Of a DNA stretch of 32,117 nucleotides, positions 8,450-32,117 are shown in pieces (position 1 is the stretch's first letter; every line of letters begins with the position of its first letter). The position numbers were made by a program, and so were the translations under genes. The stretch is taken from contig JAABSG010000011.1 of NCBI GenBank assembly GCA_011390475.1, positions 1 to 32,117 of the forward strand, read 5' to 3'. A model generated the notes under the pieces. It saw only the letters and a list, made by a program, of their open reading frames with translations. It was not told the origin of the DNA and did not search any database. The DNA is from Geminicoccaceae bacterium. Lineage in GTDB: Bacteria > Pseudomonadota > Alphaproteobacteria > Geminicoccales > Geminicoccaceae.

Positions 8450-10225
<1,776 letters not shown>

Positions 10226-10230
10226 CGCCT

Positions 10231-11112
10231 TCAGGCCCGCTCGCGCGGGCGCTCGGCGAGACCGGGATGGTCGCTGAACACCGGCAGCCGGGGCGTCCAG
10301 CGATGCGCCATGGGCGTAAAGCCGAAGCTGATGGGATCGGCACCCTCGACCGTCCAGCGCACGGTCCGGCCGAGCTCGAGCAGGCCGAAGGCGCCGGCCG
10401 GCTCGCCCTGGGTGGTGAAGCTCTCGGTCAGCGATTGCTGGGTCAGATGGGTGATCCCATCCACCGTGGTGATGGTGTTCCAGTGCACGTGGCCGGCCAG
10501 ACAGACGACCGGTACCCGCGCCAGGGCCAAGGCCGCCCGGATCCGCTCGGCGCCGGGATAGGTGGCACTTCTGGGGTTCTGCTCGAAATAGTAGTTGCCG
10601 GTCTGCGCATGGCCCGAGACCGGCACGTGGCTCAGGACCAGGAGCGGGCGGTCGGCCGCCTGCACGGTTCGCGCCAGCCAGACGAGGTCCTCCTCGACCA
10701 GGACGAAGCCCCGATGCGTTGGGCCGCGGCGAATGCGCGTGTCGGCGCGCCAGAGGACGAGGCGCCAGTCGACGACGTCGAGCGTGGCGTGGCCGAGCGA
10801 CTGGCCCAGAAGCTCCTCGTTCTCGGCAACGCTCAGATGGTCGCGGTCGTGGTTGCCGCAGAGATGCAGCATCTGGCCCGTCGTTGCCTCGCGCACCGGG
10901 CGCAGGGCGTCGGCGACCTCGCTGGCGAGCCGGCGATCGGTCACGGCGTCGAGATCGGAAATGCGGTCGCCGAGTTCCAGCACGTGGTCCGGACGGGCGT
11001 CGGCGACGTAGCGGGCGAAGTCGTCCAGGAGCGCCAGGGCGGCATCGCCGCGCTTGGTGGTGGTAGGTGCGCCGTGGTGGATGTCGGTCACGATCGCGAG
11101 ACGAACGGTCAT
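10231..11112 (-). CDS. Calcineurin-like metallophosphoesterase
   Basis: MTVRLAIVTDIHHG ... VLELGDRISD ... LHLCGNHDRDHL ... VLSHVPVSG ... VCLAGHVHWN: full D-x-H / GD / GNHD / GHxH set. Confidence 0.9.
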   Translation of the reverse strand: MTVRLAIVTDIHHGAPTTTKRGDAALALLDDFARYVADARPDHVLELGDRISDLDAVTDRRLASEVADALRPVREATTGQMLHLCGNHDRDHLSVAENEELLGQSLGHATLDVVDWRLVLWRADTRIRRGPTHRGFVLVEEDLVWLARTVQAADRPLLVLSHVPVSGHAQTGNYYFEQNPRSATYPGAERIRAALALARVPVVCLAGHVHWNTITTVDGITHLTQQSLTESFTTQGEPAGAFGLLELGRTVRWTVEGADPISFGFTPMAHRWTPRLPVFSDHPGLAERPRERA

Positions 11113-11145
11113 CGTGCATGCCCGGATGGTTGTGCAACGAGAAAG

Positions 11146-11173
11146 AAGGGCCCGCCGGTGGCGGCGGACCCTT
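11146..11173 (-). terminator. Rho-independent-like hairpin/attenuator after the family-5 SBP gene
   Basis: On the - strand AAGGGTCCGCC-gccacc-GGCGGGCCCTT (11-bp stem with one G-U pair) followed by CTTTCTCGTT; located between the SBP stop (11189) and the metallophosphoesterase start (11112). Confidence 0.6.
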
Positions 11174-11188
11174 TGGCGAAGCCGGCGA

Positions 11189-12769
11189 TCAGTTGGTGCC
11201 GTCGATCGCGATCGCACCGGCGCGGAAGTCGAGCACGTAGGGGATGTGCCCGGGCTGGGGCGCCCAGGAAACGGCCTGGCGCATCGCCCAGCTCTCGTAG
11301 GGACGCCAGAGCGGCAGGACCGGCGGGTCGGCCTTGATCCGCTCCATCAGCTGGCCATAGGCCTCCCGGCGATCCTCGACCGTCTTGCCGAAGCGGAACG
11401 CCTCCCAGTCGGCGGCATAGTCGGCGTCGGTGGTGAAGCGGCCCTCCGATTCGGACGGGCCACCCGGCGCCCACATCACCCCAAAGGAGCCGAACGGGTC
11501 GGCGAAGTACATCGGATTGGACCAGGTGCGGGCCATCATCGCGGGGTCGTTGCCGGTCCATTCCGGGGAGGCGTCGATCCGCCCGTTGATCCCGACTGCG
11601 GCCCACATCTCCATGATCGCCTGCGCCGCCAGGGTATCGTTGGTGTAGTACGAGGGCGAATGCATGTCGTAGACGACCTCGAAGCCGTCATAGCCGACCT
11701 CCTCCAGCAATTGCCGGGCCTCGTCGGGGTCGTGATAGAAGGTCTCGAGCTCCGGCATGTAGAGCGGGCCGTACTCGGCCATGGTGTGCGAACTCGGCAC
11801 GATGGCCTGGCCCAGCCACAAGGTCTCGTTCAAGAGCTCGCGGTCGATCGCCAGGGAAAGGGCCCGGCGCATCCGCGGATCCTCGAGCTTTTCGTGGTTG
11901 CTGTTGAAGATCACCACGTGGAACAGGGCCGTATTCGAGCCCACGGTCTCGATCTCGGGGTCGGCCTCCAGCAGCGCCAGCTGATCGGGTGCGATGTTGG
12001 TCGCGATATCGGCTTCGCCGGTGCGCAACGCCGTCAAGCGCGACGCGACCTCGGGCACATGGCGCACCGTGGCCCGCTCGAGCGGTGCCGGCTCGCCCCA
12101 GAAGTCGTCGAACCGCTCGTAGACGATCCGCTGCCCGGGCACGAACTCGGCGACGCGGTAGGGGCCGGTGCCGACCGGGGCCAGTGACATCGCCTCGTAA
12201 TCGTCGTCCTCGATCGCGTCCGGATCACCGGCCAGCGACTTCACATAGGCCTCGGGCACGATGAAGAGCTGCTGAAGGTTGAGCAGCGTCTCCCAGAGCG
12301 GCTCCTCCCGCTCGACATGAATGCGCACGGTCAGCTCGTCGACCTTCTCCGCCCGGTCGATGTTCGAGAGCCGGTCGCGCATCCGCACCTGGTAGGGCGG
12401 GAAGGTCGCCTGGACCATGCGGTTGACCGAGAAGACCACGTCGTCGGCGGTCATCACGTCGCCATTGTGAAAGCGCACGCCCTCGCGCAAGCGGAGCTCC
12501 ATGGTCGTGGGCGAAACCAGCTCCCAGGCGACCGCGAGGCCGGGCAGCCACTCGGGCTCGACCTTGGCGTAGTCGCGGTGGATCAAGGGATCGAAGATGT
12601 TGAAATAGAACTGCGAGCCGACATTCGAGTGGTCGCGACCGGGATCGAGATAGCTCGACATGTTGCCGGCCGCCACCGTGATCTCCTGGGCCGCCGCCGC
12701 GGACAGAGAGCAGGCGACCAGGGTCACGGCTGCAGTCGTGGTCAGGATGCGTCGCATCGGGTTCTCCAT
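11189..12769 (-). CDS. ABC transporter substrate-binding protein, family 5 (DppA/OppA-like)
   Basis: Signal peptide MRRILTTTAAVTLVACSLSAAAAQE; 'FNIFDPLIHRDYAKVEPEWLPGLAVAWELVSPTTMELRLREGVRFHNGDVMTADDVVFSVNRM' is a family-5 SBP signature. Confidence 0.93.
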   Translation of the reverse strand: MENPMRRILTTTAAVTLVACSLSAAAAQEITVAAGNMSSYLDPGRDHSNVGSQFYFNIFDPLIHRDYAKVEPEWLPGLAVAWELVSPTTMELRLREGVRFHNGDVMTADDVVFSVNRMVQATFPPYQVRMRDRLSNIDRAEKVDELTVRIHVEREEPLWETLLNLQQLFIVPEAYVKSLAGDPDAIEDDDYEAMSLAPVGTGPYRVAEFVPGQRIVYERFDDFWGEPAPLERATVRHVPEVASRLTALRTGEADIATNIAPDQLALLEADPEIETVGSNTALFHVVIFNSNHEKLEDPRMRRALSLAIDRELLNETLWLGQAIVPSSHTMAEYGPLYMPELETFYHDPDEARQLLEEVGYDGFEVVYDMHSPSYYTNDTLAAQAIMEMWAAVGINGRIDASPEWTGNDPAMMARTWSNPMYFADPFGSFGVMWAPGGPSESEGRFTTDADYAADWEAFRFGKTVEDRREAYGQLMERIKADPPVLPLWRPYESWAMRQAVSWAPQPGHIPYVLDFRAGAIAIDGTN

Positions 12770-12808
12770 TGCAGGATGTGATCCGGCCCGTTCGGGACAG
12801 GCCGGCCG

Positions 12809-13696
12809 TCAACGCTGGCGCAACCGCACGTCGGCGCGGTCGCGCAGCCAGTCGCCCAGGATCTGGACGGCGAAGGTGACAGCGAGAATCAGGAAGGCCG
12901 CACCGGTGACGATCCATGGTGCGGTCGGCATGTAGTCCCGCCCGATGCCGACCATGGCACCGAGCGTCGCGGTCGGCGGCTGCACGCCGAGCCCGAGAAA
13001 CGAGAGCGTGCTCTCCAAAAGGATGATGTTGGAGAGGCTCGAGGTGAACTGGACCACCATCGGCGAGACCAGATTGGGCAGGAGGTGTCGGCCGGCGATC
13101 CGCCAGGGCGTGGCACCGGCGGCGCGCGCCGCCTCGACGAACGGCATGCGCACGAGCTTGCGAGCCTCGCCACGGATGATCCGCGCATACTGCTCCCACC
13201 CGGCGAGGCCGAGCACGACCACCAGCACCGACAGGCTGTTGCCGAAGATGGTCAGCACGAAGAGGGCCACGAGCGTGAACGGCACTGCGATCTGCGTGTC
13301 GACCGCGCCCATCACGGCAGCGTCCGTGCGGCCGCCGGCAACACCCGCCAAGAGCCCGAGCGAGCAGCCGATCAGGAGCCCGATGACGGCGCCGAGAAGG
13401 GCGAGACCGAGGGTGAGGCGCAGGCCGTAGAGGCAGCGCGAGAGGATATCCCGGCCCAGCTCGTCGGTGCCGAGCCAATGGCCGGGGCTGGCCCTCTCGA
13501 ACCCGATCGGCGGCCGGAACCGAGCCAAAAGGCTCTGCGCGTTGGGCTCGAACGGGGCGAGCCACGGCGCCAGGACGGCAAGCATGACCAGCACCAGCCC
13601 GACCGCGAGCGCGGTGCGCTGGATCACGTCCATCTCGGACCAGATCAGGGTCAGCGCCGACTGGCCGGGGCGATCGAGGGGCAGCGCTTGCCGCAT
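12809..13696 (-). CDS. ABC transporter permease (DppC-like)
   Basis: 'HWLGTDELGRDILSRCLYGLRLTLGLAL' and 'FVEAARAAGATPWRIAGRHLLPNLVSPMVV' typical of DppC. Confidence 0.93.
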   Translation of the reverse strand: MRQALPLDRPGQSALTLIWSEMDVIQRTALAVGLVLVMLAVLAPWLAPFEPNAQSLLARFRPPIGFERASPGHWLGTDELGRDILSRCLYGLRLTLGLALLGAVIGLLIGCSLGLLAGVAGGRTDAAVMGAVDTQIAVPFTLVALFVLTIFGNSLSVLVVVLGLAGWEQYARIIRGEARKLVRMPFVEAARAAGATPWRIAGRHLLPNLVSPMVVQFTSSLSNIILLESTLSFLGLGVQPPTATLGAMVGIGRDYMPTAPWIVTGAAFLILAVTFAVQILGDWLRDRADVRLRQR

Positions 13697-22079: not shown

Positions 22080-22122
22080 TCCCCGGCCTCGACCTTTCGA
22101 CCGCGCAAAGACTGCCGGAATC

Positions 22123-22157
22123 CGGTCGTCGTTCGAAACCGCGGGGTTCGACGACCG
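22123..22157 (+). terminator. Candidate hairpin downstream of frdD
   Basis: CGGTCGTCG - 17 nt - CGACGACCG, perfect 9-bp arms, 44 bp past the frdD stop; no U-tract. Confidence 0.3.
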
Positions 22158-22269
22158 CGAGGTCGAGCCGATGACGTTCGCAGCGCCGCGGCCAGGCGGT
22201 GTCGATTTCATCGACAGGCAGCGTGGCGCTCGCGGTGTTCCTCGTCTGGCCGGCGTTGCTTTTCGGCGG

Positions 22270-23200
22270 TGACTGGTGCCCCGAGCCGAGAGGTTTCGAA
22301 CCACGCTGGGTTTCCCGGAGGCCCCTTCTCGTGAGAAGGGTCGGGTCGAAGCCAGCCACGTTTCGTCGATTTCGACGAGGGCGACGGTGACGAGACGCAG
22401 CAGCGCTGCATTGTCGGGGAAGACGCGGACCTCGAGGTCCGTCGCTTCAGCTCCTGCTGGACGGCGCGTTCGATCGGGTTCGAGCTGCGCCGTGCGCTTG
22501 CGGTGGTGTTCTGGCAGGGTGAGGACGACGAGGCCTTCGGGGATGGCGGCGGCCAGCTCTGGTGCCTCGTTGCGATGGCCATCGACCAGGGGATCTCGGC
22601 TCGGCTTCGGCGGCGGCGAGGTTCTTGGCGTTCCAGATTTCTCGAATTTGGCTGCCCCAAGCAACGACTGGGCGCTTGCGAATGGCCACTGTCGGGGCAT
22701 GAGGGTCGGGGCATGAGGGATGGCGATCTCGTGCCAGATGAACCTGGCAACGCTGCCAGACGGCGATGAACTGCACGCCGCGCATCCCGCGCCTGACCAG
22801 GTCGTCCAGAACAGCCCGCCAGTGGACTTCGGCCTCCGAGAGTGCCACCGACACGCCAATAATGCGCCGACGGCCGTCCGGGCCGACGCTCGCCGCCAGG
22901 GCGTCCTGGCCTTCGATGGGTAATCGGGCGCAACCTTCGCCCGGCTCGGTGGCCACCGGCGATCGGCCGAGGACTTCGCGCGACTGATCGAAAGAGCGAC
23001 CGACCTGCTCGTTGCCGGAACTGTTCGGGTCCTCGTCGAGCGACTGAAACGCGAGCAGACCCGGCAAAAGGGCTCCAAGAGGGAAGGCGCGGACGGGTCT
23101 CCAGCAACCCTGCCGAGATCGCCGCCCGCATGACCAGGGCGGTGTCGCTCTCGCCGGCGCGGACGGCATGCGAGCCAGCGGTGGTGTCGATCGCGGTCCG
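22270..23200 (-). pseudogene. Decayed IS256 (Mutator)-family transposase
   Basis: Fragments in different - frames: 'DGRRRIIGVSVALSEAEVHWRAVLDDLVRRGMRGVQFIA|VWQRCQVHLA', 'NPIERAVQQELKRRT', 'LEVRVFPDNAALLRLVTVALVEIDETWLAS'. Frameshifts plus an apparent internal deletion. Boundaries approximate. Confidence 0.85.
22691..22718. repeat. 14-bp perfect tandem duplication inside the IS256 remnant
   Basis: GTCGGGGCATGAGG x 2, adjacent. Confidence 0.9.
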
Positions 23201-23410
23201 GCGCCCGCTGCCCGCTGCCCGAAACGGCAATCGGCGATCGGCGCTTGCGGGATCGGCTGGGCGGCGGCGCCGTGCGGTCTCGTCGATTTCGCCTAATAGT
23301 AGAATTTTACTCATTCACTCGCGCATTGCGCTATACAGCCGATGTCGTTTCAGGTAATTTTTCCGACGATATGCAACCATAGAATGTGGCGCTCGGGGGT
23401 GCCTTTGCTG

Positions 23411-24082
23411 GTGAAAAGCAACATGCCGGCCAACCTTTCACGGCGTCCGGGGCTCGTGACGACGGGCCTTTGCACGGTTGCCGCGAGCGCAGCGATGCTG
23501 GGTGCGGTCGTCGCCCTCATGCTGATCGACGTGGCGCCGGAGGCCGGCCGCCCGGTCGCTGCCAGCACTGCCGAAACGGTTTCGCCGGACGCGACGGCCG
23601 GCCTCGATCCGGCAACGGTGCCCGAGGTCAGGGCGCCGAACGAAAGCATTGCGGCGCCGAACCAGGCCGAAGTGGCGAGCGCGGTCGCATCTGCCGCCCT
23701 ACCGGCGACGGCGTCCATCAACGAAGCGGCGGGTGCCATGGGGGCCACGGTCGCTGCGACCGCGCGGCCGCCGCTGAACAACCTGCCACTCGACCTGGGC
23801 CCTCGCGTCGCCCATGCGCTAGCGGCACTCGAGCCCACCGGATTCACGGTGCTGGCCGGCTCCTTCGTCAGCGAGCGCCATGCCGCGGCGCTGGCCGAGG
23901 CGATCGCGGCCGTCACCGCTCCGGTGAAACTGACGCCGTTCGTGGATGCCGACGGGCGCGGCGGCTGGCTGGTCTCGGCCGGGCCGTTCGCCGACGCTGC
24001 CACCGCCACGGGCGCAGCCGCCGACATTCGCCGGCTCGTCGGTGTCGATCCGCAGATCCGCCCGCTGGAGTGCTGCGAGTGA
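23411..24082 (+). CDS. Single-pass membrane protein with C-terminal SPOR-like domain, first gene of the T6SS operon
   Basis: N-terminal TM 'LVTTGLCTVAASAAMLGAVVALMLIDV', low-complexity linker, C-terminal 'FTVLAGSFVSERHAAALAEAIAAVTAPVKLTPFVDADGRGGWLVSAGPFADAATATGAAADIRRLVG' (SPOR-like). Start uncertain (GTG 23411 / ATG 23423 / ATG 23342). Confidence 0.7.
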   Translation: MKSNMPANLSRRPGLVTTGLCTVAASAAMLGAVVALMLIDVAPEAGRPVAASTAETVSPDATAGLDPATVPEVRAPNESIAAPNQAEVASAVASAALPATASINEAAGAMGATVAATARPPLNNLPLDLGPRVAHALAALEPTGFTVLAGSFVSERHAAALAEAIAAVTAPVKLTPFVDADGRGGWLVSAGPFADAATATGAAADIRRLVGVDPQIRPLECCE

Positions 24083-24516
24083 CGAGGCCGCTGGCCCTGA
24101 TCGCGGCGGCCCTGCTCGGCCTTTCCGGCTGCGCCAGGCCGTGCCTGATGGACCAGACCGGCACCATGACCGTGAACGCCGCGGCCGACGCCAACCGGAC
24201 CTCGGCGACGGCGGTCGATGTCGCCGCCACCACCGAGCCCGCCCTGGCCGACCGCCTCGCCGGTCTCGACGCCAGCACCTATTTCGCGACCCGCGAGCAG
24301 CTGTTGCGCGACCATCCGGCAACGCTGACTGTTACCGGATGGGAGGTCGCCCCCGGCCAGTCCGTGGGCCCCGAGCCACTGCGCTTCGCTTGTCGAACGG
24401 ACGCTGTCTTCGTCTTCGCCAGCATCCACGCGCCGGGTGCCCACCGGGTGCGCCTGGAGCGTTTGAAGGGTCTGCGTGTCGACATCGGCCTCGATGCGAT
24501 CGAGGTGACCCGATGA
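24079..24516 (+). CDS. tssJ: T6SS outer-membrane lipoprotein, TssJ-like
   Basis: Lipobox 'ALIAAALLGLSGCARP'; size, position before tssK, and pattern 'NRTSATAVDVAATTEPALADRLAGLDASTYFATREQLLRDHPATLTVTGWEVAPGQ' fit divergent TssJ; GTGA overlap upstream. Confidence 0.68.
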   Translation: MTRPLALIAAALLGLSGCARPCLMDQTGTMTVNAAADANRTSATAVDVAATTEPALADRLAGLDASTYFATREQLLRDHPATLTVTGWEVAPGQSVGPEPLRFACRTDAVFVFASIHAPGAHRVRLERLKGLRVDIGLDAIEVTR

Positions 24517-25946
24517 GCCCCCACGACCACGACGAGCCGGTCCGCTTCGCCACGTCGGACCCGGTACAGTGGCACGAGGGCATGTTGCTGGCGCCGCAGC
24601 ATTTCCAGCTCGAGGCCCGCCGCATCGAGGCGATGGTCAATGCCCAGATGCGCGCGGCGACACCCTTTCTCTGGGGGGTCAGGCTGCTGGAGATCGACCG
24701 GTCGGCGCTGCTCGCGGGCCAGTTCCGCGTGCTGGCGCTCGAAGCTCTGTTCAGTGACGGCCTGATCGTCTCCCATCCGGCCCCGGGCTCGCCGGAGCTC
24801 ACCTTCGACCTCCTGGCCATCGACCGCGACCTCGGGGTGGAGCCCGCGACCATCCACGTCGCCGTCGCGATGCACTCCGATCGGGCAGCAGCACCGGGGG
24901 CGCTCCGCCGCTATCTGTCGCTCGACGGCGCGCCGGCGCCGGACGAGAACACCGGCGACAACCCGGTGGCCGCGCCACGACTGCGCCCAGCGCCGACGCT
25001 TCTCGTCACCGACAGTCCCTTCGTCGGGCCCGGCAGCGCCTACGTGGCACTGCCGCTCGCGCGCGTCGCCCAAGTCGACGGGCGGCTGCAGCTGCTCGAC
25101 TACCAGCCGCCGCTGTTGCGCGTGACCCGCGATACGCCGGCCCACAAGCTGGCCACCCGGCTGGCGCTGGAGTTGCGCGAGAAGGCGCAAGGCCTGAGCG
25201 ACCGCTGGCGCGCCGCCCTGGAGTCCGGCGGCACCGATGCACCCGAGCTCGCGGCCGTTCTCAGAGGCCTCGTGGCAGCCTTGCCGCGGCTCGAGGCGCT
25301 GCTGCGTGACGAGGTCGCGGCACCTTATGATCTCTACCTCGCCCTTTGTGACGTCTTGGGGGCCGTGGCCGGCATCGATCTCGCCTTGGCGCCACCCTCG
25401 GCGCCGCCCTATCGCCACGCCGACGCGCTGCCGGCTTTTCGGGCCTTCGCCGATCTCGTCCTGCCGGCCGTGGCCAGGCTTCACGCGGGCCGCCGCACCA
25501 TGTCCATGGCACGGCTCGAGGACGGCGCCTTTGCGCTGGCCGGCGATACGGCAACGCTCGACCACCCGTTCCAGATCCTGCTCAGACCGGCGCCCGGCGT
25601 TCGTGCGGCGGGGACTCGCGAGTGGGCGATGGCCGTCACCATCGCGACCGAAGATGCCATGGCCGGCGCCCGGGGCCGGCGGGTGCGGGGTGCGGCGCGG
25701 CGCGTGCTGGCCCAGGATGCGACGCTCGATGTGGCCGCACCACCCGGTGCCGTCGTCATCGAGGTCGATCGTGACCCCGCGTTCCTGACCCCGGGCGTCC
25801 GGCTGGAGATCCGGCATCCCGCCGGTGAAACGGCACCAAGTGCGCCTGCCTCGGCAGCGCTGCTGCTGCCACCGGAGCGGCGTGCCAATCGCTCGGCCTC
25901 GACATCGGCCGTGGGCGCGGCGAAGCGCGCGGAGCCGGTCGCTTGA
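24513..25946 (+). CDS. tssK: T6SS baseplate subunit TssK
   Basis: 'DPVQWHEGMLLAPQHFQLEARRIEAMV' and 'YVALPLARVAQVDGRLQLLDYQPPLLRV'; ATGA overlap with tssJ. Confidence 0.94.
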   Translation: MSPHDHDEPVRFATSDPVQWHEGMLLAPQHFQLEARRIEAMVNAQMRAATPFLWGVRLLEIDRSALLAGQFRVLALEALFSDGLIVSHPAPGSPELTFDLLAIDRDLGVEPATIHVAVAMHSDRAAAPGALRRYLSLDGAPAPDENTGDNPVAAPRLRPAPTLLVTDSPFVGPGSAYVALPLARVAQVDGRLQLLDYQPPLLRVTRDTPAHKLATRLALELREKAQGLSDRWRAALESGGTDAPELAAVLRGLVAALPRLEALLRDEVAAPYDLYLALCDVLGAVAGIDLALAPPSAPPYRHADALPAFRAFADLVLPAVARLHAGRRTMSMARLEDGAFALAGDTATLDHPFQILLRPAPGVRAAGTREWAMAVTIATEDAMAGARGRRVRGAARRVLAQDATLDVAAPPGAVVIEVDRDPAFLTPGVRLEIRHPAGETAPSAPASAALLLPPERRANRSASTSAVGAAKRAEPVA

Positions 25947-26746
25947 GTGGTCCCGCCGCACCGCGCCCCACCCGCGAGGCGTTGCGCGCCTTCCAGCGCC
26001 TCGATGGCGCGATCGCCGAGGCCACGGCCAGAGCCACCCTGGCGGTGGAGAACGCGACCGACGATCCGGACCCCGACGCCGCTGCACGGATCGCCACCGA
26101 GCAGACTCGCGCCGCTTTCGTCACGCTGCGCCGCCTCCTGGTCGAGCTGGGCGCGCCCGAGACACCGACCGCGAGATCCGGGGCGGTCGATCGCGGCCCG
26201 GTCGATCGAGGTTACGTGCTCGCCTGCTACGCCGACGAGGCGCTCCTCCATCTGGTCCGCTGGCCGGGCGCCGCCCTCTGGTCGGGCATGCTGCTGGAGC
26301 GGGCACTCTATGGCACGGAGATCGCCGGCGAGCGTCTGCTCGAGACGGCCGAGCGCATGGTCGATCTCGTCGAGCCGGCACGCCGCGATGTCGCAGCGGC
26401 ACTCTTCCTCGCCATCGCCGCCGGCTTTCGCGGTGGCCGCCGCGGCAAAGCGGACGATGCGGTGATCGAACGCTTGCGACAAGGTCTGTTCGACATCGCC
26501 ATGGACCGTCCGGCGCCGGAACGACTGGAGTTGCGGCGGCGCTTCGCGCAGGCCACGGACCACACGGTGAGCGCTCCCCGACGGCCACCCTCACGGGCGG
26601 TCCAGCGCGCCGCCGCAGCACTGGCGCTGGTCGTCGCCGGCTGGCTGGTGGCGGGACATCTCCTTTGGCACTCGACCCATGTCGACATGGTGCGGCTGGC
26701 TGATCAGGTGATCGCGGCCTCGCGCAGCGACGGGTCTCGTTTTTGA
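25943..26746 (+). CDS. tssL: T6SS inner-membrane protein TssL (DotU/IcmH family)
   Basis: 'YVLACYADEALLHLVRWPGAALWSGMLLERALYGTEIAGERLLE' and C-terminal TM 'AAAALALVVAGWLVAGHLLW'; no domain after the TM. Possible TTG start overlapping the tssK stop. Confidence 0.87.
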   Translation: MSGPAAPRPTREALRAFQRLDGAIAEATARATLAVENATDDPDPDAAARIATEQTRAAFVTLRRLLVELGAPETPTARSGAVDRGPVDRGYVLACYADEALLHLVRWPGAALWSGMLLERALYGTEIAGERLLETAERMVDLVEPARRDVAAALFLAIAAGFRGGRRGKADDAVIERLRQGLFDIAMDRPAPERLELRRRFAQATDHTVSAPRRPPSRAVQRAAAALALVVAGWLVAGHLLWHSTHVDMVRLADQVIAASRSDGSRF

Positions 26747-26749
26747 GCC

Positions 26750-29700
26750 ATGGCCACGCTGCTGCCGTTCCTGCCGATCATCGCCGCCGGACTGACCGCT
26801 CTGCTCCTGCTCGCCGGTATGGCCACCTGGTGGCTGGCCACGCGCCCCGGCACCGCCGAACCCACGAGGTCGGGCGTAGCCGAGCCGGCAGAACCGAACG
26901 CCACGGGGCCGAAAGAGCGGCCGGACGATACCCTGGGCGCGCTCGGGTCGGGTCCGCTGGTCGCCGTGATCGGCGCACCCGGCGCCGCCGTCTCGGCGGT
27001 GGTGGCCGCTGCCCGTGGCGAGGCGTCGATCGCGGCGCCCGACGGTGACGGCCGCATGGTCGCCATTCCGGGCGGCGCCGTGCTCGATTTCGGCGATGCG
27101 TTGCTGGCGGCCGCCGACTGGCGCGAGCGCTGGACCGCCGCGATCGGCCGAACATCGGCGCTGCGCGGCTGGGAAGGCACTGTCGACGCCCTCGTCCTCG
27201 GTGTCTCGGCACGGGTCCTGGCCGATCTCTGGCGCGAGTCGCCGGCTGCCATCGAAGGCCTCGGTGGCCGCTTCGCGGCGCTGATCGAGGACGCCCAGCG
27301 CCTCGGCGGGCTGCGCTGTCCGGTCTACCTGCTCCTGACCGACGCCGAAGGCCTGCCCGGCTTTGCCGCGCTCGCGCATGAAGCGCGCCTGGAGCATTCC
27401 GATGCGGCGCCGCTCGGCTGGTCGCAGCCCTACGGTGCCGATGCGCCCTTCTCGCCACGCTGGGCCGAGGAGGCCGTGGAGACCCTGGCACTGACGCTGG
27501 AGGACGCCGTGCTCGACGGCCTTTCCGGCATCACCGATTTCGCCCGGCGGCCCGGTCTCGTGCTGGCGCTGCCGGCCGCCATCCGCGACCTCGGCGAGCC
27601 GTTGCGGGCCCTCCTCACGGCGACGATGCGACCGGCCCCCGCCGGCGAGCCCGCCATGCTCCGCGGCCTCTATCTCACCGGTGCCGGGGCCGATGCCACT
27701 GGGCCAGACGGGCCTGAACCGGCCGCCTTCGCGGCCGAGCTCTTCGCCCGGAAAGTCCTGCCGGAGGCTGGCCTCGCGCAACCGGCCCGGGCACTGGCGA
27801 CGAAAGGCGCCCGCGTGGCGCGCCGCCTGCGCATCGGCACCGGCGTCGCTGCCGCCGTCGCCACGCTGGCCCTGCTCGCACTCTTCGCCCTGGAGCGGCG
27901 GCAAGAGAGTGTCGTCGAGCTCTTGGCGCTGGTCGACCGCTACGTGGCCGAGGATCAGGCGCTCGCCGCCCGGGGTCTCGAACCGTCGCCTGCGGTACTC
28001 GCCCGGGCGACCGAAGAGTTGTTCGACGCCATGGCCGAGCTCGAGTTCGATCGGGTCGCAACCGTGCTGGCCCCCACCTCCTTTCTTTCCGGGCTCGACC
28101 ATCGGCTGCAACAGGCGCTCGCTATCGGCTTCGACCGGGTGGCGCTTCGCGCCATCGGCCGCGGGCTCGAAAGCCGGGTGGTCGAGGCCGGCACCGCGGC
28201 AGCGCGCGCGCATGGCCCGACCCCCGACGCCTTCGTCACCCTCGCCGAGACGCTGACCGCGCTCGACGACGACATCCGCCGCTTCGACGCCTTGCCGCAC
28301 TCGACCAGGCCGGCCGATCTAGCCCGCTCGAGTCACGCCGCCCTCGGCGTCACGCCGCCGGCCGGTTTCGATGACCACTACGGGCTCTACATCAAGGCCC
28401 TCGGTCTGACCCGGCAGCGCGGCTTCGATGGACCGGGCGCCTGGGCGGCGCTGGAGGCGACGCTCGGCCGCGACCTGTTCGGCGCACTCGGCGCGGCCTA
28501 CCGGCAAGACCCGTTGTTCGTTGCGATCGAGACCATCGCGGCGAACGCCGGCCTGCTCCTCGCCGGAGGCCGCCCGGACGGCGCCGAATTCACACCGCAG
28601 CTGCAAGCCCTGCTGGGCGCGATCGGTACGGCCGAGCGGCTGCTCGCCGATCCGGCCCGCAATTGGCTGGGACCGGAGGCCGTCGAGACCGATCGCCGGC
28701 TGGCAGCGGCCGCAACCCAGATCAGCGAGCTCAGCTTCGCGCCCGGCTCGCTGCGGGTCCAGCTCACCGCCGGCCTGCGCCGCGAGCGGGAGGCGGCGCA
28801 GGCGGAGCTCTTGCGCCTGCAAGGCTTCGCCGGCCGGCCGGTGGTGCACGTCGCCGACTCCGCACCGGCCAGGCTCGATCCGCTCTATCCCCGCCTGCGC
28901 CAGTCCACGCACCAGCTGCTCGACGATCCGAGGCGCGGTTCACTGGCCCGAGTGCCGGCGACCTCGGCCATCTCGTCTGCCAGCTCGCCCGCCGGGCAGC
29001 GCTTCGCCTGGACGACGGAACGGCTGACCGATGCCTCGGCGGCGATGGAGTGGTTGCAGGAGATCACGGCAGCGTCGGCCACGGCACTGCCTGCCGATCT
29101 CCGCGAGATCGTCGTCGGCGAGACTCGCGCCCGTGCCGAGGCGCGGGTCACGGAGCTGCTCGACGCCGCGCGGCAGCCGCTCGGCAACCCGGCCTTCGTC
29201 GACGACCTGGCACGCGCCGAAGCGCAGGCCTTCGCGACGGCAGCCCCGCTCTTGGCCGAGCTGCGCGACAAGGCGGCGCTCTTGCAGCTGACCAGGGCCA
29301 GTGCCCGCCTCGCCGCCACCGCCGACGTCCAGGCCCGCCGGGTACTGGTCGAGGCCGACCGCGAGCTCGCCGCGGCCCGCCTCTATTCGCCCGGAATCCA
29401 AGGCTTCGCGCTCTGGGACGGCCAGCCGGGCGGTGCGGCCAGCGTCTTCGGCCTCGCCAGCGATGCGTCGCTCGCCGGCCTCGTCCGGGAATGGCGAACC
29501 TTCAGCCGGCTCTTGGCCCAGGGCCGCGCCGGCCCGGCATTGCGCTACCTGCGCGGTTCGCCGTCCGGGCCGCCGCTCGACCTCGCCGCGTCCACGGCAC
29601 TCTGGCGCGAGACCCTCGCCGTTCTGGCCGATTACGACCAGAGCGCGCCCCGCAACGACCTGGCGGATCTGGAGCGCTTCATTCTGCTCGATCTCAACGA

Positions 29701-30646
29701 GCTGGACCAGGGCAGCTGCACGGCGCACCTCGCCGCCATCCGTCCGGGGCCCAGCTTCTTCGGCGTCCGGCTCGCCGCGCTTCGCGAGGCTGCGCAACGT
29801 CGCTGCGCCGCGCTCCGGACCGGTGACGCACGAGCGACCTGGGCTGCGATCTCGAGTGCCTTCGAGGCTGGCCTCGCCGGCCGCTTTCCCTTCGTCGGCG
29901 CCGGCGTCGGTGAACCGATGACCCAGCTGACCCGCCTCGCCGATGTCGCCGATCCACAGAGTGTCCGTCGCTTCTTCGCGACCTTCGGCGACGAGCTCGC
30001 CGGGCTCGGCGATGCCGACACCGCGGCCGATTGGCTCGATATCGACGCCAGCGACTTCGCCGCGGCGCTGGAAGCCACTCGGCCGTTTCTCGGATTGCCC
30101 GAGAACGGCGCTGTCGCGTCCACGCCCGCGTTCGCCGTTACCGCCGACTTCCGCAGCAATGCGGACCACGAGCGCGGCGGCGATCAGATCATCGAATGGA
30201 CGCTGCGCATCGGCGCAGACCGGGTCAGCTCCTTCGAGCCCGACCGCCACCTCGTCTGGCGGCAGGGTGACCGGGTCGAGCTGAGCTTGCGCTGGGCCCG
30301 CAACGCGCCGCAGGCACCAGCCGCGCCGCGCCGTCCCGACGCCACGCTGGACGGCCGAACGCTGCGCCTCGCCTATGACGGCCCCTGGGCCCTTCATGCG
30401 CTCATCGCCGCCAATGCGGCGCCGTTTCCCGATATCGTCCTGGTCGCCGACCCGGAGCCGAACCTGTTGCGGATCACCACGCCGCTGGTCCAGAATCCGG
30501 ACGCCGCCCGGGGCGAGCTGCCGCGGCTCGACGACGCCCTCGTCTATCTCCGCCTCGACGTTCGGGCGGTGGACGCGACCGGCAGCGTCCCGGTCGGCCC
30601 GACGCTCGCCATGCCGGTCTTTCCGGCGCGTGTGCCCGGCGGATGA
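26750..30646 (+). CDS. tssM: T6SS inner-membrane protein TssM (IcmF family)
   Basis: 1298 aa; N-terminal TMs, 'PVYLLLTDAEGLPGFAAL', 'MLRGLYLTGAGAD', 'AAELFARKVLPEAGLAQPAR', central TM, C-terminal 'YDGPWALHALIAAN'. Confidence 0.92.
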   Translation: MATLLPFLPIIAAGLTALLLLAGMATWWLATRPGTAEPTRSGVAEPAEPNATGPKERPDDTLGALGSGPLVAVIGAPGAAVSAVVAAARGEASIAAPDGDGRMVAIPGGAVLDFGDALLAAADWRERWTAAIGRTSALRGWEGTVDALVLGVSARVLADLWRESPAAIEGLGGRFAALIEDAQRLGGLRCPVYLLLTDAEGLPGFAALAHEARLEHSDAAPLGWSQPYGADAPFSPRWAEEAVETLALTLEDAVLDGLSGITDFARRPGLVLALPAAIRDLGEPLRALLTATMRPAPAGEPAMLRGLYLTGAGADATGPDGPEPAAFAAELFARKVLPEAGLAQPARALATKGARVARRLRIGTGVAAAVATLALLALFALERRQESVVELLALVDRYVAEDQALAARGLEPSPAVLARATEELFDAMAELEFDRVATVLAPTSFLSGLDHRLQQALAIGFDRVALRAIGRGLESRVVEAGTAAARAHGPTPDAFVTLAETLTALDDDIRRFDALPHSTRPADLARSSHAALGVTPPAGFDDHYGLYIKALGLTRQRGFDGPGAWAALEATLGRDLFGALGAAYRQDPLFVAIETIAANAGLLLAGGRPDGAEFTPQLQALLGAIGTAERLLADPARNWLGPEAVETDRRLAAAATQISELSFAPGSLRVQLTAGLRREREAAQAELLRLQGFAGRPVVHVADSAPARLDPLYPRLRQSTHQLLDDPRRGSLARVPATSAISSASSPAGQRFAWTTERLTDASAAMEWLQEITAASATALPADLREIVVGETRARAEARVTELLDAARQPLGNPAFVDDLARAEAQAFATAAPLLAELRDKAALLQLTRASARLAATADVQARRVLVEADRELAAARLYSPGIQGFALWDGQPGGAASVFGLASDASLAGLVREWRTFSRLLAQGRAGPALRYLRGSPSGPPLDLAASTALWRETLAVLADYDQSAPRNDLADLERFILLDLNELDQGSCTAHLAAIRPGPSFFGVRLAALREAAQRRCAALRTGDARATWAAISSAFEAGLAGRFPFVGAGVGEPMTQLTRLADVADPQSVRRFFATFGDELAGLGDADTAADWLDIDASDFAAALEATRPFLGLPENGAVASTPAFAVTADFRSNADHERGGDQIIEWTLRIGADRVSSFEPDRHLVWRQGDRVELSLRWARNAPQAPAAPRRPDATLDGRTLRLAYDGPWALHALIAANAAPFPDIVLVADPEPNLLRITTPLVQNPDAARGELPRLDDALVYLRLDVRAVDATGSVPVGPTLAMPVFPARVPGG

Positions 30647-31728
30647 GCGCGACCGACGCCCTCTTCGACGGCTTGCTGGAGCCCGTCCCGGGACCCTTGC
30701 CCGCCGGCGAGTCGTTGCGCTGGGGTCCGATCCATGCCGCGATCGAGGAGGCCCGGCGCGAGGAAGACGAGGACCTGCCGCAGGGGGTCTGGCGACGCGA
30801 CGTCAAACGGGCCGACTGGGACCAGGTGGTGGAGCTGTGCCGCGAAGCGCTGGCCCTGAAGTCCAAGGATCTCCAGGTCGCCTGTTGGCTGGTCGATGGC
30901 GCCATTCGGCTGCATGGGCCGGCCGCCGGGGCAGGGGCTCTGGACTTCCTCGCGACGCTCGTGGCCACCTGGTGGGACGAGCTCTATCCAGCGCACGACG
31001 GTGATGTCGATTCGCCCCGCTTCGCGCCCTTGATCTGGCTCGATGGTGCCCTGGCGCAATGGCTCGCCGCCTATCCGATCGCCACGGCCGAGACCGAGGA
31101 CGGCGTCACCGCGCTCAGCTGGAGCGACCACGCGGCCGCCTGCCGCCGCGAGGCCGCCGGACGCGCCGGCAAGCCGGCCAAGGCCGGCCGCTCCTGGCCG
31201 ACGATCGCCGGTTTCGACGCGCTCGCCGACCGCACGGCACGCGACCACCTGGACAGGCTGGCGACGGCCGGTCCTGCCCTGGACCGGGCGACGGTGGCCC
31301 TCGAGGAGCGGTTGGCACTGCTGGCCGGCGAGCAGGCACCGAGCTTCGGACGGCTGCGTGCCGTCATTCGGGATGTCGCGTCGCTGCTGCAACCGATCCT
31401 CGCCCGCCGTCCGCCGGCCGTGGCGCCAGTACCGGCCCAGCCCGTCACCCCGTTCGCTGCAACGATCGCCAAGGTCAGTGCCGCCATGAGCCTGAAGCCA
31501 GCACCGCTCGCCACGGCCAGCCTCGTCGATCGCGAGCAAGCCTACCGCGCACTGGCGGACATCGCAGCGTACCTCCGCCGGGTCGAGCCGCACAGCCCGA
31601 CACCGTTTCTCATCGAACGCGCTATTCGTTGGGGTGGCATGACGCTGCCCGACGTTCTGGCGGACGTGTCGCGGCGGGGCAGCGACGGCGACATCCTGAA
31701 ATGGCTGATGGAGGGGGCGAACAAGTAA
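30643..31728 (+). CDS. tssA: T6SS protein TssA (ImpA family)
   Basis: ImpA-like N-terminus 'PLPAGESLRWGPIHAAIEEARREED' and C-terminus 'AYRALADIAAYLRRVEPHSPTPFLIERAIRWGGMTLPDVLADV'; ATGA overlap with tssM. Confidence 0.9.
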   Translation: MSATDALFDGLLEPVPGPLPAGESLRWGPIHAAIEEARREEDEDLPQGVWRRDVKRADWDQVVELCREALALKSKDLQVACWLVDGAIRLHGPAAGAGALDFLATLVATWWDELYPAHDGDVDSPRFAPLIWLDGALAQWLAAYPIATAETEDGVTALSWSDHAAACRREAAGRAGKPAKAGRSWPTIAGFDALADRTARDHLDRLATAGPALDRATVALEERLALLAGEQAPSFGRLRAVIRDVASLLQPILARRPPAVAPVPAQPVTPFAATIAKVSAAMSLKPAPLATASLVDREQAYRALADIAAYLRRVEPHSPTPFLIERAIRWGGMTLPDVLADVSRRGSDGDILKWLMEGANK

Positions 31729-31851: not shown

Positions 31852-32117
31852 ATGACCGAAAGCGTTCAGCACAAGCTGTCGCGGGTGCGCCCGCCGCGCG
31901 TCCAGATCACCTACGACGTCGAAATCGGTGACGCCGTCGAGCGCAAGGAACTGCCGTTCGTCATCGGCGTCATGGCGGATCTCTCGAGCAAGCCGGCCGA
32001 GCCGCTGCCGCGGCTCGCCGATCGCAAGTTCGCCGCCATCGACCGGGACAATTTCAACGAATGCCTGGCGGCAGCATCCCCGCGCGTCGCGTTCGCCACG
32101 CCGAACAAGCTGCAGCC
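31852..32117 (+). CDS. tssB: T6SS contractile sheath small subunit TssB (truncated by window end)
   Basis: MTESVQHKLSRVRPPRVQITYDVEIGDAVERKELPFVIGVMADLSSKPAEPLPRLADRKFAAIDRDNFNECLAAASPRV...; no stop before the window edge. Confidence 0.94.
   Translation, partial: MTESVQHKLSRVRPPRVQITYDVEIGDAVERKELPFVIGVMADLSSKPAEPLPRLADRKFAAIDRDNFNECLAAASPRVAFATPNKLQ

Follow-up and report, generated by a model that had tools for sequence, protein, structure and literature searches.

A T6SS operon of a Geminicoccaceae bacterium opens with a gene for a membrane-anchored SPOR protein that overlaps tssJ, and the sequence comparisons support this protein as a partner of tssJ that is conserved within a T6SS branch without OmpA-fused TssL. 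Probably, the protein is a stand-alone accessory, anchored in the inner membrane, that would associate with TssJLM, contact peptidoglycan beside this complex and anchor or position it. The operon lies in a window of 32,117 nucleotides (the whole stretch of DNA analyzed), which corresponds to contig C447. The draft genome to which this contig belongs has 4.1 Mb, is 87% complete and has a Rhodospirillales MAG (isolate CSSed165cm_57) as its nearest named relative.

A SPOR protein and TssJ are encoded by overlapping genes

The first gene of the operon (23411–24082, + strand) starts with GTG. Its product has a homologue of 72% identity in the same genus and matches the Pfam SPOR profile (PF05036) with E = 8.3e-7 and 29.7 bits, above the cut-off of 21. 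In a SPOR scan of the whole genome, it scored 32 bits and was one of five SPOR proteins. Hydropathy analysis revealed a single hydrophobic segment near the N-terminus, with positive charge on its N-terminal side. This transmembrane segment spans approximately residues 15–39 (23453–23527, + strand), where the model has a helix at residues 14–39. It is followed by an Ala/Pro-rich, low-complexity and disordered linker of ~100 residues, which extends to approximately residue 140. Since this linker has such a length in the window protein and is variable among the SPOR proteins paired with tssJ elsewhere, it could bridge part of the periplasm. The C-terminal SPOR domain comprises residues 142–217 (23834–24061, + strand). 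The AlphaFold2 model of the protein was built from an input of two sequences only and is of low confidence (mean pLDDT 45); the RNP-like beta-alpha-beta-beta-alpha order of the SPOR fold is nevertheless visible in the domain region. The SPOR domains of RlpA (6i05 and 6i09) ranked first when the predicted domain was compared with known structures by Foldseek (probability 1.00, TM-score on target 0.75). The original prediction of a transmembrane-linker-SPOR architecture, for which it had proposed a profile search, is thus confirmed. No OmpA-family peptidoglycan-binding domain was found in this protein with Pfam. Of note, the region upstream of the SPOR gene, which begins after the fumarate reductase genes and measures ~1.3 kb (22080–23410), contains no recognizable gene and is possibly regulatory or the remains of a decayed gene.

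The stop codon of the SPOR gene overlaps the start codon of the next gene in the tetranucleotide GTGA (24079–24082, + strand), exactly as predicted. Searches of the product of this next gene (24079–24516, + strand) with Pfam and NCBIfam did not return a TssJ match. The protein has the lipobox LSGC, and its AlphaFold2 model (pLDDT 87) matched 3zhn, 4a1r, 3rx9 and 6ixh in Foldseek with E values of ~1e-5. The best structural matches were all TssJ or TssJ complexes. The protein is therefore identified by its modeled fold and lipobox as TssJ, an outer-membrane lipoprotein, which agrees with the earlier assignment.

The T6SS cluster encodes a short TssL

Downstream of tssJ, the operon continues on the + strand with tssK (24513–25946; TIGR03353, 4.3e-50), tssL (25943–26746), a divergent tssM (26750–30646; Pfam and NCBIfam) and tssA (30643–31728; TIGR03363, 3e-68). 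The 5' part of tssB (31852–32117; Pfam) runs off the contig. A second contig, C431, starts with matching tssB sequence, followed by tssC, hcp, tssE, tssF, tssG, clpV and vgrG, and further encodes eCIS_core, MORN_2 and DUF4280 proteins. Based on these matching ends, C431 apparently follows C447. Two genes beside vgrG on C431 (locus L027) are of separate interest. The eCIS_core-domain protein (10218–11963, − strand) has a long C-terminal part and is a candidate T6SS cargo, and the DUF4280 (PAAR-like) gene (12742–13131, − strand) is a candidate for the spike cap.

TssL has 267 residues, and its DotU domain (8.2e-15) covers residues 48–236, followed by one transmembrane segment and a tail of ~25 residues. 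It is therefore of the short form without a C-terminal peptidoglycan-binding extension, and the original reading that TssL ends just after its transmembrane segment was correct. An OmpA-type or TagL-type anchor elsewhere in the cluster had been named as the observation that would speak against a role of the SPOR protein. Profile searches of C447 and C431 found neither an OmpA nor a TagL protein among the T6SS genes, and none of the 11 OmpA domains elsewhere in the 87%-complete genome adjoins T6SS genes. One of these domains belongs to Pal, encoded in the tol operon, and was rejected as a T6SS anchor. So were the remaining ones, which are OmpA-like or MotB-like and include one truncated fragment at a contig end.

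The SPOR-tssJ pair recurs across Alphaproteobacteria

A search with TssM as a single query within the family and order found only the sister species. Class-wide searches with TssM and DotU were then used, and the loci obtained were translated in six frames and searched with profile HMMs. A SPOR gene immediately upstream of tssJ, in the same orientation, was found in 14 genomes including that of the window (the others being G030, G256, G153, G036, G171, G349, G264, G116, G071, G407, G136, G390 and G313), and in two strains of Azospirillum brasilense, 2020WEIHUA_K and Sp7, where the arrangement is located on plasmids. The carriers belong to at least nine families (f1, f6, f41, f86, f106, f123, f153, f158 and f172). 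The SPOR match was above the Pfam cut-off in every case scanned, and in G030 and A. brasilense Sp7 the domain was found by a custom profile only. The distance from the SPOR stop codon to the start of the TssJ-domain match ranged from −7 to 79 nt.

Could the SPOR gene be a housekeeping gene of divisome type that merely lies beside the T6SS operon and has no function in secretion? Genomes encode several unrelated SPOR proteins, and the SPOR gene near one T6SS locus (L079) does encode a DacF-like carboxypeptidase; we rejected it as a member of the pair. However, with ~five SPOR genes per genome, their repeated occurrence beside one specific gene cannot be attributed to chance, and neither can the gene order, because it is the same in many other genomes. 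Together with the close spacing and the overlapping genes in so many families, and with the two SPOR genes in a row in both A. brasilense strains and in G071, this makes a housekeeping gene without a T6SS role very improbable. In these tandem arrangements (L156, 7235–8741, in A. brasilense; L069, 5348–6799, in G071), the first SPOR gene before tssJ is short (~170 aa) and the second is longer.

The original prediction also proposed a check for co-occurrence of the SPOR protein with TssL lacking the extension. TssL was without OmpA in every carrier of the pair, and no SPOR gene was found near any of the 22 loci with OmpA-fused TssL. On the other hand, a SPOR gene was present at 13 of the 20 DotU loci of the class with a detected TssJ-like gene and absent from seven loci with short TssL and TssJ, and also from the Niveispirillum loci. 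Therefore, the SPOR domain is not universally required where TssL is short.

The scanned loci yielded several further observations. The sister species has a second T6SS with OmpA-fused TssL (L030, G030:C661), so that both wall-binding solutions occur in one genome. Many small-genome Alphaproteobacteria (L103–L135, genomes of ~0.6–2.6 Mb) have short-TssL T6SS loci at which no nearby TssJ-like gene was found; in these lineages, the gene may have been lost, may lie elsewhere or may have diverged too far. In G256, tssK is split over two frames (L062, 10567–11905), owing to a frameshift or else to an error in the assembly. In G462, a frame of 639 residues (L152, 9636–11552) has a DotU domain that precedes transmembrane segments and an IcmF/TssM-like N-terminal stretch, and is a possible TssL-TssM fusion.

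Glycan-contacting residues are only partly conserved

In RlpA, Gln270 and a basic patch of Arg302, Arg309 and Arg311 contact denuded glycan (PMC6895207). The window SPOR protein has Leu148 at the position of Gln270, and Leu187 and Ser189 at those of Arg309 and Arg311, so that two of the three patch arginines are lost; Arg183 may stand for Arg302. The Gln position is occupied by His in the sister species and by Glu in Azospirillum, and Gln is retained in eight of the 15 distinct genomes with the pair. The fold-determining Gly is conserved among the paired proteins. Given these replacements, strict recognition of denuded glycan should not be assumed for the window species. Contact with peptidoglycan by members of this family is plausible.

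These residues bear on both main rivals of an accessory wall-contact subunit. According to the first, the SPOR fold would serve as a protein-protein module that joins the inner membrane to TssJ, stabilizes or chaperones TssJ, and binds peptidoglycan weakly or no longer. In favor of such a module, tssJ and no other T6SS gene is always the partner, and several members do not conserve the glycan-contact residues, in contrast to the pairing and the fold-determining Gly. However, peptidoglycan binding is the main known role of SPOR domains, half of the members retain the Gln, and SPOR is also fused to TssL without a detected adjoining TssJ (see below). We consider this explanation possible, with perhaps one chance in four of being correct.

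According to the second, the SPOR protein would position the T6SS: denuded glycan produced by septal amidases would recruit TssJLM to the wall at the septum or young pole. SPOR domains do bind denuded glycan (PMC6895207), the layout of one transmembrane segment, linker and SPOR domain is that of FtsN, and the Gln is kept in the eight genomes mentioned. Its replacement in Azospirillum, and its loss together with most of the basic patch in the window species, make targeting to denuded glycan less likely there, and we regard septal positioning as a slightly weaker candidate than the protein module. It can coexist with a wall-contact role. The targeting to division sites that the original prediction suggested is speculative. 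Assembly of the membrane complex through the SPOR subunit and TssJ at denuded peptidoglycan, septal or under remodeling, across a large alphaproteobacterial branch is likewise unlikely; it would tie T6SS firing sites to cell-wall remodeling or division.

Apparent repeated recruitment of SPOR to the T6SS

A TssK tree of 93 rows has two deep sides, with the systems with OmpA-fused TssL and the TssL-SPOR fusions on one and the short-TssL systems on the other. The SPOR-tssJ pair occurs only on the short-TssL side, in alphaproteobacterial branches, and was gained or lost several times (six changes by parsimony, of which three are forced). Niveispirillum, family f135 and many small-genome lineages lie on the same side without the pair. 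The mutual exclusion of SPOR and OmpA-fused TssL follows this split between two deep clades and thus does not constitute independent evidence; for the same reason, Fisher's test (p = 0.03) is confounded by phylogeny and is no proof. The association of the pair with short TssL is real, but few independent events lie behind it.

TssL with a C-terminal SPOR domain was found in three genomes of the same phylum outside the class (L154, 2.7e-6; L155, 3.8e-5; and L153, 0.0018, which is below the cut-off). No TssJ was detected beside these fusions. Fourteen DotU-SPOR proteins had been noted before (Broms et al. 2012; PMC3326028). Since a long distance in the tree separates the fusions from the alphaproteobacterial pair, the T6SS membrane complex seems to have acquired SPOR on more than one occasion. 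Of all the indirect evidence for a stand-alone SPOR protein working together with TssJLM, these fusions are the strongest.

Proposed role of the SPOR protein

Of the explanations considered, an accessory subunit that contacts the cell wall ranks as the most likely, and we favor it with some confidence over the TssJ-directed module and septal positioning as its main rivals. The SPOR protein would be held in the inner membrane by its single transmembrane segment, with its SPOR domain in the periplasm, and would work alongside TssJ, TssL and TssM as an accessory component of their membrane complex. The SPOR domain would take the place of the OmpA domains of most other T6SSs, which are located on TssL or in TagL, TagN or TagP, and would touch peptidoglycan beside the TssJLM channel and thus hold or position it. 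The original claim that the SPOR protein supplies the anchor is supported in part. The conserved tssJ partnership in systems without OmpA-fused TssL and the TssL-SPOR fusions argue for it, whereas the lost Gln and Arg residues and the short-TssL systems without SPOR argue against it.

The SPOR-tssJ pair is thus a concrete candidate for the wall attachment of many alphaproteobacterial T6SSs with short TssL and without TagL. If this is true, two domain families unrelated to each other, OmpA and SPOR, would have been recruited for one job. In the literature searched, outside which lay most subscription papers including Aschtgen 2010, no T6SS component was described that consists of a separate SPOR protein. 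Peptidoglycan-binding accessories of the T6SS are known as such, and what sets the present case apart is the SPOR family and the pairing with TssJ. The T6SS of A. brasilense has been studied (Cassan 2021, as cited in PMC11837500), and its TssJ is strongly induced by fructose (PMC11837500). With a studied T6SS and two SPOR genes, A. brasilense allows the idea to be tested directly.

Comparison with known systems

Like the OmpA domain of TssL fusions or of TagL in EAEC, the SPOR domain is predicted to be an inner-membrane-anchored, periplasmic peptidoglycan-binding domain of the T6SS complex. TssL without the C-terminal extension is known from systems in which a separate accessory serves (PMC8253398), and the same form of TssL is present here. 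Genes for TagL-, TagN- and TagP-type accessories lie in the T6SS cluster, as does the SPOR gene, which overlaps tssJ and recurs there. However, the domains of OmpA-fused TssL and TagL are of the OmpA family and bind the DAP-containing peptide, whereas the window protein belongs to the SPOR family, which has an RNP-like fold and binds denuded glycan. Moreover, the SPOR protein has one transmembrane segment where TagL has three, and its gene accompanies tssJ, not tssL.

The DotU/TssL-SPOR fusions (PMC3326028; L153–L155) resemble the window protein in that the membrane complex carries SPOR instead of OmpA. In the fusions, SPOR is part of TssL and the systems belong to the TssK clade of OmpA type; in the window, it is a separate, TssJ-paired protein of the other clade. 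FtsN, DedD and DamX share with it the N-terminal transmembrane segment, the periplasmic linker and the C-terminal SPOR domain. In contrast to these divisome proteins, it is encoded in a T6SS operon and its key Gln is not conserved. Finally, the LspD secretin of the Legionella T2SS (as cited in PMC9239104) also places a SPOR domain on a trans-envelope secretion machine; there, the domain is part of an outer-membrane secretin of a T2SS, unlike in the T6SS-linked window protein.
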